Part shown: piece after piece, positions 44,696-61,698 of the stretch | How the letters are laid out: each line of letters begins with the position of its first letter | How positions within the stretch are numbered: the stretch's first letter is position 1 | Assembly: GCA_014360905.1 (NCBI GenBank) | Contig: JACIWW010000001.1 | Location: forward strand, 1 to 64,000 | Origin: Chloroflexota bacterium | GTDB taxonomy: Bacteria > Chloroflexota > Anaerolineae > UBA2200 | Reading direction: 5' to 3' | Length of the DNA: 64,000 nucleotides | Notes under the pieces: model-generated | Databases searched by the model: none | Seen by the model: only the letters and a program-made list of their open reading frames with translations | What the model was told of the DNA's origin: nothing | Program-made: the position numbers and the translations under genes

Positions 44696-45104
44696 GGGGA
44701 TGACAGGTCTCGACGGGGAGGGCTGGCTCGAGACTGCAAGCAGAGGTGCCTCCACCTCGTAAAACAGGGGCAAACAATAAGTGCCAATACAGCACGAACA
44801 CCGGCGTATGCTTACGCCATGGCTGCGTAAAGCAATCTAGCGTAAGCGCACGCTTTGGCCACTAAGAATGGCCACGTCCATCCCCCTCTCGCTGCCGGTG
44901 GAGTGGGATTGGGCGTCATAGGAACCGGAGTGCAGCTGCCTCCATGCTGATAAAGGCAGCCTAAGACCCTCCAACGAGGGATCAGCTGGCTCCAGAGCAA
45001 CTCTGTCGGTTGAGGTGCATGGAGCGAGAGCAAAAAACCGACTAAGCTTGTAGGATGTCTCCAGCCGAACTCTTCGGACGCGGGTTCGATTCCCGCCATC
45101 TCCA
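44696..45104 (+). ncRNA. ssrA: Transfer-messenger RNA (tmRNA)
   Basis: This RNA rescues stalled ribosomes with SmpB. The 5' GGGGATG pairs with the 3' CATCTCC to form the acceptor stem, and a T-arm (GGGTTCGATTCCC) precedes it. The tag frame runs from GCC 44783 to TAA 44828-44830 and encodes ANTARTPAYAYAMAA, ending in the AA signal for proteases. CCA is not encoded (CTG follows the discriminator A), so it must be added by enzyme. The 409-base length is ordinary for a one-piece tmRNA. Confidence 0.96.
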
Positions 45105-45108
45105 CTGT

Positions 45109-58418: not shown

Positions 58419-59798
58419 TTACTCCCCACCCTCCTTCACCAACTCCCGCGCCCTTTTTATCTGCGCACGAACTGCAGTTGGTGCTGTGCCTCCCTGTACA
58501 TCGCGGCGCTCCACCGACTGGCGGTAATCAAAGACGGCGTAGAGGTCCTCTGCAAATGCCGCGTGGATGGCTTGGTACTCGGCTAAATCCAGTTCGCGCA
58601 GGGTTACGCCCAGTGCTTCTGCTCTTTTCACCGCTCGCCCTACCAGGTAATGGCTCTGGCGAAAGGGCACGCCTTTGCGCACCAGGTAATCGGCCAGGTC
58701 AGTGGCCAGCATCGCCTCGTCCAACGCCGCGGACATGCGCGCCGCGTTCACTCGCAGCGTCGAGATAACCCCGGCAGCGATAGGTAGTTCCAAGGACAAC
58801 GTGTCTATTGTGTCGAAAATGGCTTCCTTATCTTCCTGTAAATCCTTGTTGTAGCCGGATGGAAGTCCTTTAAGCATCATCAACGCGCCCATCAAATGCC
58901 CTGTCACTCTCCCGCTCTTGCCGCGCATCAACTCCAGCGTGTCCGGATTTTTCTTCTGCGGCATCAGGCTGGAGCCGGTGCAATAGGCATCGTCCAACTG
59001 CACAAAGCCAAACTCGTGGCTGCTCCACAGAATGAGGTCTTCCGCCAGATTGCTGAGATGAACTTGCAGCAAAGCCGCCCAAGCCAAGAATTCCACCACA
59101 TAATCGCGGTCACTGACGGCATCCATGCTGTTCTCCGCAATAGCGGCAAAGCCCAATTCGGCCGCGAGGGCCTGGCGGTCAATGCCGAATGGATTTCCGG
59201 CCAGCGCCCCTGCGCCCAAGGGCAATATGGCTGTGTGCTGCTGCACGTCGCTCAGCCGTTCGCGGTCGCGCTGAAACTTCCAAAAGAAAGACATCAGCCA
59301 ATGGCTGAAAAGCACTGGCTGCGCCGGCTGCAAGTGCGTGTAACCGGGCATGATGATGTCCAGACAGGACTCGGCTTTATCTAGGATAGCTCCCTGTAAT
59401 TCAGCTAGATATTGGCGCAAGCGAGCCATCTCTTCCATCAGGTAGAGACGCAGGTCGGTGCTCACTTGATCGTTGCGCGATCGCCCGGTATGCAATTTAC
59501 CCGCCACAGGACCCAACAACTCCGTAAGCCGCCGCTCGACAGCAGTGTGGATGTCTTCGTCATCAGGATGAAACTGAAATGATTCCCTCTCGAATTCACG
59601 CCGTATCTGTTCCAGGCCAGCGATGAGCTGGCTACACTCTTCAGCGGTGAGCCATCCTGCCCGCATCAAAGCGCTAGCGTAGGCTATGCTTCCCTTGATG
59701 TCAGCAGCATACAGCCGTCGGTCAAAGGCAATGGAGTCATTGAAGCATCTCGTCTTCTCATCCATCGCTTTAGCAAATCGTGCTCCCCACAGCATCAT
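58419..59798 (-). CDS. argH: Argininosuccinate lyase
   Basis: This last enzyme of arginine synthesis splits argininosuccinate to arginine and fumarate. The 459-residue protein of the fumarase/aspartase superfamily has the signature GSSLMPQKKNPDTLELMRGK, the substrate-site KLHTGRSRNDQVSTDLRLYL, and PGYTHLQPAQP with its catalytic His. ATG 59798 was chosen because AAAGGAGG is seven bases upstream. It lies 79 bases behind argG on the same strand, so argGH is one operon controlled by the leader described below. Confidence 0.96.
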   Translation of the reverse strand: MMLWGARFAKAMDEKTRCFNDSIAFDRRLYAADIKGSIAYASALMRAGWLTAEECSQLIAGLEQIRREFERESFQFHPDDEDIHTAVERRLTELLGPVAGKLHTGRSRNDQVSTDLRLYLMEEMARLRQYLAELQGAILDKAESCLDIIMPGYTHLQPAQPVLFSHWLMSFFWKFQRDRERLSDVQQHTAILPLGAGALAGNPFGIDRQALAAELGFAAIAENSMDAVSDRDYVVEFLAWAALLQVHLSNLAEDLILWSSHEFGFVQLDDAYCTGSSLMPQKKNPDTLELMRGKSGRVTGHLMGALMMLKGLPSGYNKDLQEDKEAIFDTIDTLSLELPIAAGVISTLRVNAARMSAALDEAMLATDLADYLVRKGVPFRQSHYLVGRAVKRAEALGVTLRELDLAEYQAIHAAFAEDLYAVFDYRQSVERRDVQGGTAPTAVRAQIKRARELVKEGGE

Positions 59799-59876
59799 TG
59801 CCTTTCCTCCTTTCCCAGTCACGCCTCATGAGCAACGAGTGACCCCCTTGTCACTCTCACTGCTTGTTTTATCCCC

Positions 59877-61130
59877 CTAATCGCGCTGGATCTCCAACTG
59901 GGCTGGCCACGGCGCCTGTCCATTCTGGCGATCAACCAATGCCTTGACCTTCAGCGGCAGACCGAACAGATTGATAAACCCGGCGGCATCGTTTTGGTTA
60001 TAGACGACATCCCGGCCAAAGGTGGCAAAGTCCTCACGATAGAGGCTGAATGGCGACTTGCGCCCTACCACGACACAGCTCCCCTTGTAGAGCTTGACGC
60101 GCACAGTACCAGTGACCCGCTCCTGGGTTTTGGCCACGAAAGCATCCAGCGCCTCACGCAAGGGAGTGAACCACAGCCCATAGTATACCAGCTCAGCATA
60201 GCGGTGCCCAACCAACTCCTTGTAGTGCAGCGTCTCCCGATCCAGGCAGATGCTTTCGAGCCCCTGATGGGCAGTATACAGGATTGTGCCACCTGGGGTT
60301 TCGTACACCCCGCGTGATTTCATGCCTACCAGACGGTTCTCCACCATGTCCACGCGTCCTACGCCGTGAGCACCGCCTAGTTCATTGAGCTGCGTGAGAA
60401 GCTGCACCGGTCCCATCGCCACGCCATCAATAGCCACCGGAACGCCCTGCTCAAAATCAATGGTCAAATAATGCGGTTTGTCCGGTGCTTTTTCAGGGGC
60501 GACAGTGATGCAAAAGAGGTCCTCTTCTGGCTCAACCCAGGGATCCTCCAGCATGCCTCCCTCATGGCTCAGGTGCCAGAGATTGCGATCGCGGCTGTAG
60601 ATGGACTTTTCCGTAGCAGACACGGGGATATTGTGCGCACGCGCATAAGCCAGTTCGTCTTCACGGGAGCGCAACTCCCACTCGCGCCATGGCGCTATGG
60701 TATGGAGGTAAGGGTTGAGCGCCTTGACACTCAGTTCAAAGCGCACCTGGTCATTGCCTTTGCCCGTGCAACCATGGGCAACGGCATCGGCTGCTTCTTG
60801 CTCTGCCACTTTCACCAGGTACTTGACAATGATGGGACGTGCGAATGAAGTACCCAACAGATATTGGCGCTCGTAGATGGCTCCTGCCTGCATGGTGGGG
60901 AAGGCATATTCTCTCAGGAACTCTTCGCGCAGGTCTTGGATGTACGCCTTGCTAGCACCAGTAGCGAGGGCTTTTTCCTCCAACCCAACCAGTTCCTCTG
61001 CGCCCTGCCCCACATCGGCCGTAAACGTGATCACTTCGCAGCCATAATTCTCCTTCAGCCATGGCACAATCACCGATGTATCCAGTCCGCCAGAGTACGC
61101 TAACACCACTTTTTTGAATTTGCCTTTCAT
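59877..61130 (-). CDS. argG: Argininosuccinate synthase
   Basis: The enzyme joins citrulline and aspartate using ATP. The 417-residue protein has the PP-loop [17 protein letters not shown] at the N-terminus, [11 protein letters not shown], the citrulline/aspartate site [14 protein letters not shown], and [17 protein letters not shown] with [15 protein letters not shown] precedes ATG 61130. The 5' leader (about 61131-61398) contains an arginine-rich leader peptide, a large hairpin and an intrinsic terminator, which points to attenuation by arginine supply. Confidence 0.97.
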
Positions 61131-61213
61131 TTTTCTCCTCCTTTTTAGATTTTGGGCTTTTCCAACACTCTGAGGAAAAACGAAACGCGATGGAAAAGCC
61201 ACCCATCGCGTAT

Positions 61214-61245
61214 AAAAAGAGCCAGCTTCCGTCTGGAAGCTGGCT
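61214..61245 (-). terminator. Intrinsic terminator in the argG leader (attenuator)
   Basis: On the minus strand, AGCCAGCTTCC and GGAAGCTGGCT form a perfect 11-bp stem with an AGAC loop (61220-61245), followed by CTTTTT. It lies between the promoter and argG, 84 bases before the gene start, so it must be bypassed for expression. Bases 61229-61236 (CCAGACGG) can instead pair with 61292-61299. Confidence 0.88.
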
Positions 61246-61275
61246 GTCTATCGTCCTATGATTGTGAAAGATGCA

Positions 61276-61320
61276 GCCCGAACGAAGCTACCCAGACGGG
61301 TGGTCTGGCTCTTCGCGGGC
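61276..61320 (-). promoter_or_regulatory. Leader hairpin of the argG attenuator
   Basis: On the minus strand, GCCCGCGAAG pairs with CTTCG and CGGGC, and CCAGAC pairs with GTCTGG around a CACCC loop, giving about 16 base pairs. CCGTCTGG (61292-61299) in its 3' side is complementary to CCAGACGG in the terminator. The two structures therefore exclude each other. Confidence 0.75.
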
Positions 61321-61365
61321 TCGTCGGATATCCACTACATCCACTGTTAACCAGCAACTACTCAT
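61288..61365 (-). CDS. Putative arginine leader peptide of argGH
   Basis: This 25-codon frame runs from ATG 61365 to TAG 61288-61290 within the argG leader RNA. It contains IRRAR, three arginines in four codons (CGA CGA GCC CGC, 61315-61326), at the foot of the leader hairpin. The stop lies in the hairpin's 3' side, as in classic leader peptides of amino-acid operons. The ribosome site (GGGTTGAG) is weak. A ribosome stalled at the Arg codons would open the hairpin; the peptide itself probably has no function. Confidence 0.65.
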   Translation of the reverse strand: MSSCWLTVDVVDIRRAREEPDHPSG

Positions 61366-61403
61366 AAAGCTCAACCCATTCAGTCCATTTATTTCGCTAA
61401 TCT

Positions 61404-61432
61404 AGTTTACTACAAGAGGAAATTTTTGTCAA
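61404..61432 (-). promoter_or_regulatory. Promoter of argGH
   Basis: On the minus strand, TTGACA (61427-61432) and TAAACT (61404-61409) are spaced by 17 bp. The transcript would begin about 30 bases before the leader-peptide ATG. Confidence 0.75.
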
Positions 61433-61461: not shown

Positions 61462-61698
61462 CTACTTCTTGCACCCTGCACACGAAGTGGCGGCACAGGC
61501 AGCGCACGAACCACCTCCAGCCACGCTGGTGGTTGTTCCGTCACTGCCTTTGCTCAGCGCGGCAAAAATAGATAGCAGACGGCGTGCACCCGGAGACTCA
61601 CAATTCGGGCACACTGCCGGCTCATCTGCTTTGCTAAAACTGCGCAACAACTCAAACTTGCACTGACATCGGTCGCAAATATATTCATAAAGAGGCAT
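61462..61698 (-). CDS. FmdB-family zinc-ribbon protein
   Basis: The 78-residue protein starts MPLYEYICDRCQCKFELLRS and has the zinc ribbon CxxC (CDRC) paired with CPNC near residue 31, the FmdB/CxxC regulatory family. The C-terminal tail is low in complexity and cysteine rich (SCAACAATSCAGCKK). The founding member was linked to formamidase control, but the general role is unknown. GGAGAG is upstream of the ATG. It lies upstream of the argG promoter and faces the same way. Confidence 0.85.
   Translation of the reverse strand: MPLYEYICDRCQCKFELLRSFSKADEPAVCPNCESPGARRLLSIFAALSKGSDGTTTSVAGGGSCAACAATSCAGCKK

Follow-up and report, generated by a model that had tools for sequence, protein, structure and literature searches.

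A predicted arginine-codon attenuator upstream of argGH and its family of leader RNAs in Chloroflexota

Introduction

How could an arginine operon be tuned to the supply of its amino acid in a bacterium that encodes no ArgR? The question is raised by argGH in a 64,000-nucleotide stretch of DNA (the window) from G000, a genome of the Anaerolineae (Chloroflexota) that comprises 2.83 Mb in 49 contigs, is 96% complete and has Chloroflexi MAG-37 as its nearest named relative, with an argG that is 94% identical. The ArgR domain (PF01316) was found neither in this genome nor in any of 60 relatives, compared with 9 of 14 control genomes. A search with TIGR01850, a model that matches 14 of 14 control genomes, found no argC in the window's own genome, so argGH may be making arginine from citrulline that is obtained elsewhere.

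A preliminary description of the locus had proposed ribosome-mediated arginine attenuation of the trp/his type and had remarked that arginine genes are more often controlled by ArgR, a fair remark for a genome in which ArgR is not even encoded. Comparative evidence strongly supports the proposal, and we consider it very probable, judging from the sequences, that argGH is under a ribosome-mediated transcription attenuator that senses charged Arg-tRNA. We describe here the anatomy of this attenuator, its conservation and covariation among relatives, and the match between its codons and the downstream gene, as well as a wider picture that the preliminary description missed: the argGH attenuator belongs to a family of Chloroflexota leaders that place Arg, Lys or Pro codons on a shared RNA scaffold, the latter two at lysine- and proline-related genes.

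Architecture of the argGH leader

The features of the locus are collected in Table 1. Both argG and argH score far above the cut-offs of their NCBIfam models, and the promoter, the 25-codon leader with three Arg codons in four, the perfect 11-bp terminator with its T run and the complementarity between hairpin and terminator (segments 2 and 3) are all found as the preliminary description had them. It had also placed a hairpin correctly at the Arg codons but gave it 16 bp, where we count 17; this hairpin begins directly 3' of both CGA codons. The promoter alone is weak evidence: a scan of 700 bases found 1 promoter-like site, where chance would give 0.6. As a whole, the leader fold is 3.7 s.d. 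more stable than those of its dinucleotide shuffles, 0 of 200 being equally good.

Table 1. Coordinates of the argGH leader, its genes and neighboring features in the window.
Feature	Position	Strand	Support or remark
argG, argininosuccinate synthase, predicted regulated gene	59877..61130	-	NCBIfam TIGR00032, 518 bits, cut-off 268
argH, argininosuccinate lyase, second operon gene	58419..59822	-	NCBIfam TIGR00838, 618 bits, cut-off 280
Predicted sigma-70 type promoter, TTGACA-17-TAAACT	61404..61432	-	10 of 12 consensus matches
Leader peptide ORF, MSSCWLTVDVVDIRRAREEPDHPSG + TAG, 25 codons	61288..61365 (ATG 61365, TAG 61288)	-	At least 15 relatives have an Arg-rich ORF at this place
Putative regulatory codons CGA CGA GCC CGC (Arg Arg Ala Arg; IRRAR)	61315..61326	-	Arg kept, with synonymous variation
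Predicted anti-antiterminator hairpin (segments 1:2), core GCCAGAC-n5-GTCTGGGTAG	about 61275..61321	-	17 pairs
Segment 2, CCGTCTGG	61292..61299	-	Pairs with segment 3 in the predicted antiterminator
Segment 3, CCAGACGG	61229..61236	-	Terminator 5' arm, loop and first 3'-arm bases
Predicted intrinsic terminator (segments 3:4), 11 perfect pairs 61245-61220, then CTTTTT	61214..61245	-	Covaries in relatives
Second terminator-like hairpin, CGCGATGG...CCATCGCG + TTTCGTTTTT (T-rich tail)	61185..61211	-	Conserved among argG relatives
Small zinc-ribbon (PF09723) protein gene	61462..61698	-	Adjoins the argG promoter upstream
tmRNA gene	44696..45107		Rfam RF00023

From this arrangement we infer a cycle of leader translation, stalling, termination and read-through. 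A ribosome would trail the polymerase through the 25-codon leader and, if charged Arg-tRNA were scarce, would stall at CGA CGA GCC CGC and mask the first hairpin on its 5' side. The hairpin's 3' side (CCGTCTGGGTAGCT), now unpaired, could then bind the terminator's 5' part (AGCTTCCAGACGG), allowing read-through into argG. If charged Arg-tRNA were plentiful, the ribosome would move on to the stop codon, inside the 3' side of the hairpin, and mask that side so that the terminator forms; after the ribosome departs, the first hairpin would also sequester its own 3' side. When ribosome masking was modeled on the leader RNA of the window, the antiterminator was the best fold whichever of the three Arg codons the ribosome was stalled at, with −29.8 kcal/mol as computed before the terminator 3' arm is made; a ribosome placed on the stop codon made the antiterminator impossible, and only the terminator formed.

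Conservation of the leader before argG

Homologs of argG were chosen regardless of their upstream DNA, and in at least 15 genomes (argG approximately 75–94% identical) the gene is preceded by 2–4 clustered Arg codons, a hairpin and a terminator. The clusters take many forms, KRRPEE, SRRAR, VRRAR, KRRAC, SRRSR and SRRRN as well as CRRPG, IRRRT, IRRRA, NRRRP, IRRRL and IRARR, and the N-terminal parts of the leaders vary freely. Across the argG and argC leaders Arg is encoded by AGG, CGA, CGT, CGC and CGG, and it is thus the amino acid, not the base sequence, that is conserved. Retention of the Arg codons together with the structure, as well as compensatory changes in both stems, had been named in the preliminary description as what to look for in related argG leaders. 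The codons are kept along with the structure in varying synonymous forms, and both stems are altered on both sides: an alignment of 15 argG leaders contains 14 pairs with changes on both sides, a number equaled by 0 of 500 shuffles, and 83% of its cells are paired, compared with 30–54% in slid versions.

Such a leader is missing directly before argG in about a third or more of the argG-bearing relatives. The more distant argG genes of the class are often without it, and some genomes carry the leader before argC. A separate observation concerns three loci of Bipolaricaulota/Acetothermia (L007, L011 and L012), whose argG is approximately 80% identical to that of the window and is preceded by Arg-rich short ORFs that are laid out differently, for example MKWYKRRCFSCLRRRTVG, with the stop in a terminator loop. 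These ORFs were perhaps carried over along with argG.

One scaffold before arginine, lysine and proline-related genes

The argG leaders served to build a covariance model, which was run over 396 Anaerolineae genomes. In addition to argG leaders, it found matches upstream of argC and proS as well as of homocitrate synthase, lysW and lysX-type ligases, and for each of these gene classes the leader codons fit the downstream gene. To avoid circularity, we used a codon-blind search with the hairpin pattern GCCRGACnnnnnGTCTGGnTAG, which says nothing about the codons that precede it. This pattern occurs at 61 sites in 52 of the 396 Anaerolineae genomes, compared with 4 sites for the reversed control, and at 9 more sites elsewhere in the phylum. 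Downstream genes were assigned by tblastn with reference proteins verified against NCBIfam and Pfam. Two sites with the exact scaffold (L174 and L193) have neither this type of leader nor any of the reference genes downstream, and matches to model R1 below about 30–40 bits, which include ordinary terminators and coding sequence, were set aside (L144, L156, L157, L224, L225 and L241).

The codons track the gene. In the last 12 codons before the hairpin, Arg codons average 3.0 and Lys codons 0.27 at arginine genes (argG and argC; n = 22), and at lysine genes (lysW, lysX, homocitrate synthase and homoaconitase; n = 38) the averages are 0.92 for Arg and 3.47 for Lys. Over the 68 scaffold sites with enough downstream sequence, the match of Arg or Lys codons to the gene was reached in 0 of 20,000 label permutations (Fisher 6e-14), although the sites come from related genomes and the permutation and shuffle figures given here therefore overstate independence. 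The pattern spans several families and classes. Pro runs are present at 3 of 3 scaffold sites before phosphoesterase and MazG-like genes, and the proS leaders recovered by the covariance model are Pro-rich as well (L075, L131, L146 and L226). Pro-rich scaffold leaders before a calcineurin-like phosphoesterase or MazG-like gene were noted at L123, L138, L179, L208, L236 and L180.

The few departures from this pattern are informative in their own way. In two argC leaders, L083 and L164, the Arg codons lie in a different frame, MIAPVQCLRRTRGGRRRT and MFELLFVSRSPRM, and the leader ends within the stem or immediately ahead of it. Several argC leaders have a shifted frame or stop but retain both Arg codons and RNA stem. 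LysX-type ligases are preceded by Arg, not Lys, codons at L159 (lysW-lysX), L063 and L072, and at L072 an argC-like gene follows lysX, which suggests LysW-dependent arginine synthesis in these genomes. The Shine-Dalgarno sequence is weak at the leader start in the window, and AAGAGG or AAGGAG is present in several relatives; synonymous codon variation and the shifted-frame leaders suggest that the leader may be translated.

Two further kinds of leader were seen beside these. One scaffold, with the leader MMMTPHTRTSQQRGQQQPDRRSG, precedes a LysE-type exporter (L221). In the Anaerolineae family f50, leaders with Gln runs (MMIHTTVQQQQQQCHPGGVG, ...DQQQQQQQQQPIPPPGSV; the L231 leader is an example) and a terminator precede glutamine synthetase at 11 of 18 loci, the glnA loci concerned being L244-L251 and L255-L257. 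These f50 leaders are apparently a glutamine-codon attenuator with a stem sequence different from the scaffold, a hint that the use of attenuation in the phylum goes further still.

Does the ribosome read codons, or is something else sensed?

A short Arg-rich leader could also act through its peptide, with the nascent chain in the exit tunnel sensing arginine or a related metabolite and arresting the ribosome, as with the fungal arginine attenuator peptide and the bacterial SpeF leader. The leaders are indeed short, and the C-terminal residues PD..SG recur among them; in the SpeF case, orf34 with its two Arg codons controls the gene downstream (PMC6386406). However, no conserved peptide lies upstream of the predicted stall site, the N-terminal parts being unconserved, and PD..SG is encoded by the RNA stem, which stayed in place in several argC leaders whose frame or stop had shifted. 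Arg is moreover replaced by Lys or Pro according to the gene. Peptide arrest is, in our judgment, very unlikely.

The same two observations, a stem kept despite frame shifts and codons swapped according to the gene, argue against a ligand-binding riboswitch or T-box in which the leader ORF would be incidental. A strong, conserved RNA structure that ends in a terminator is what such an element would look like, and the preliminary description had named a match to a known riboswitch family as grounds against its own reading. No Rfam match to a riboswitch or T-box was found in the window or at 12 family loci, at gathering or relaxed thresholds, and arginine, lysine and proline genes share a scaffold in which the codons alone are changed, unlike a fixed aptamer, so that we give this explanation almost no weight.

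Antiterminator and terminator across the family

Taken by themselves, the antiterminator pairs show no excess over shuffles among the 15 aligned argG leaders, because the GTCTGG / CCAGAC core is nearly invariant, as it is across the family. The test was for this reason taken to the wider family and to the extension of the core, in which the five variable bases that precede GTCTGG would be expected to pair with those that follow CCAGAC. Among 66 members there are 99 contiguous extra pairs, compared with 41 ± 7 when the partners are shuffled (0 of 5,000), and so the antiterminator extension covaries along with both stems. At L168, L142 and L205 the antiterminator complementarity is perfect over 11 bases.

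Of the 66 family members, 63 have a strong terminator with a T tract, which lies a median distance of 66 nt beyond the scaffold. This, together with the terminator's 5' side being the partner of the antiterminator, makes it barely credible that the intrinsic terminator plays the lesser part and that the leader acts chiefly by way of Rho, or of translation and RNA stability, even though Salmonella SpeF uses its Arg codons in that manner (PMC6386406) and the long gap to argG contains a second conserved hairpin. Most of the closest argG leaders have that hairpin, with a stem that is near-constant and a loop that varies, and the window's genome has only one further copy elsewhere; it is not explained by the attenuator model.

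A possible phylum-level cassette

A broader reading of these data is that the scaffold is a phylum-level cassette, spread among arginine, lysine (LysW) and proline-related operons by exchange of the codon run alone and replacing ArgR or riboswitch control, with the Gln-run leaders controlling glutamine synthetase on a related plan. We lean toward this reading, with appreciable reservation. If it is correct, then the codon run would report the product of an ambiguous operon, for example a LysW/LysX cluster with Arg codons. Since the codons name the amino acid that is sensed, the family could be used for pathway assignment, both in LysW-type clusters, which may make lysine or arginine, and for the phosphoesterase that apparently answers to proline. 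For a bacterial class without ArgR, the argGH leader offers a specific and testable form of arginine control, and the family would bring Arg, Lys, Pro and probably Gln within the range of ribosome-mediated attenuation in Chloroflexota.

Comparison with known systems

Ribosome-mediated attenuators are known for the trp, his, leu, thr, phe and ilv operons of Enterobacteria and Actinobacteria. The argGH leader shares with them a short ORF with clustered cognate codons and, as predicted, the 1:2, 2:3 and 3:4 pairings, and in the classical attenuators the sequence motifs of the segments are likewise conserved over long distances (PMC1262725). The same survey of Actinobacteria found no arginine or lysine RNA element, and it refers to T-boxes (arginine) and riboswitches (lysine) elsewhere (PMC1262725). 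The open literature that we searched gave no description of an attenuator for arginine or lysine in Chloroflexota; an earlier mention is possible, for instance in the wide survey of Lopatovskaya et al. 2010 (cited in PMC4833913).

Other systems resemble the argGH leader in what they sense or in the genes that they serve. In Salmonella and E. coli, two consecutive Arg codons in orf34/SpeFL, the leader ORF of speF, sense arginine and alter the RNA structure (PMC6386406), but speF control reaches ornithine decarboxylase via Rho, masking of the ribosome binding site and RNase G, whereas an intrinsic terminator is predicted for the argG leader. The arginine T-box riboswitches of Firmicutes similarly respond to the charging of tRNA-Arg before arginine genes, but they bind the tRNA directly without a leader peptide, and the argG leader has no T-box match. 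The ArgR repressor shares with the leader the feedback control of arginine biosynthesis and differs from it in being a protein that acts with a DNA operator.

The trp/his-type mechanism itself is thus the known part. What appears to be new is the control of argG by Arg codons and a phylum-level scaffold with interchangeable codons: unlike the classical attenuators, the Chloroflexota leaders would read Arg, Lys, Pro and perhaps Gln, and within this one phylum a single sequence scaffold serves several amino acids.
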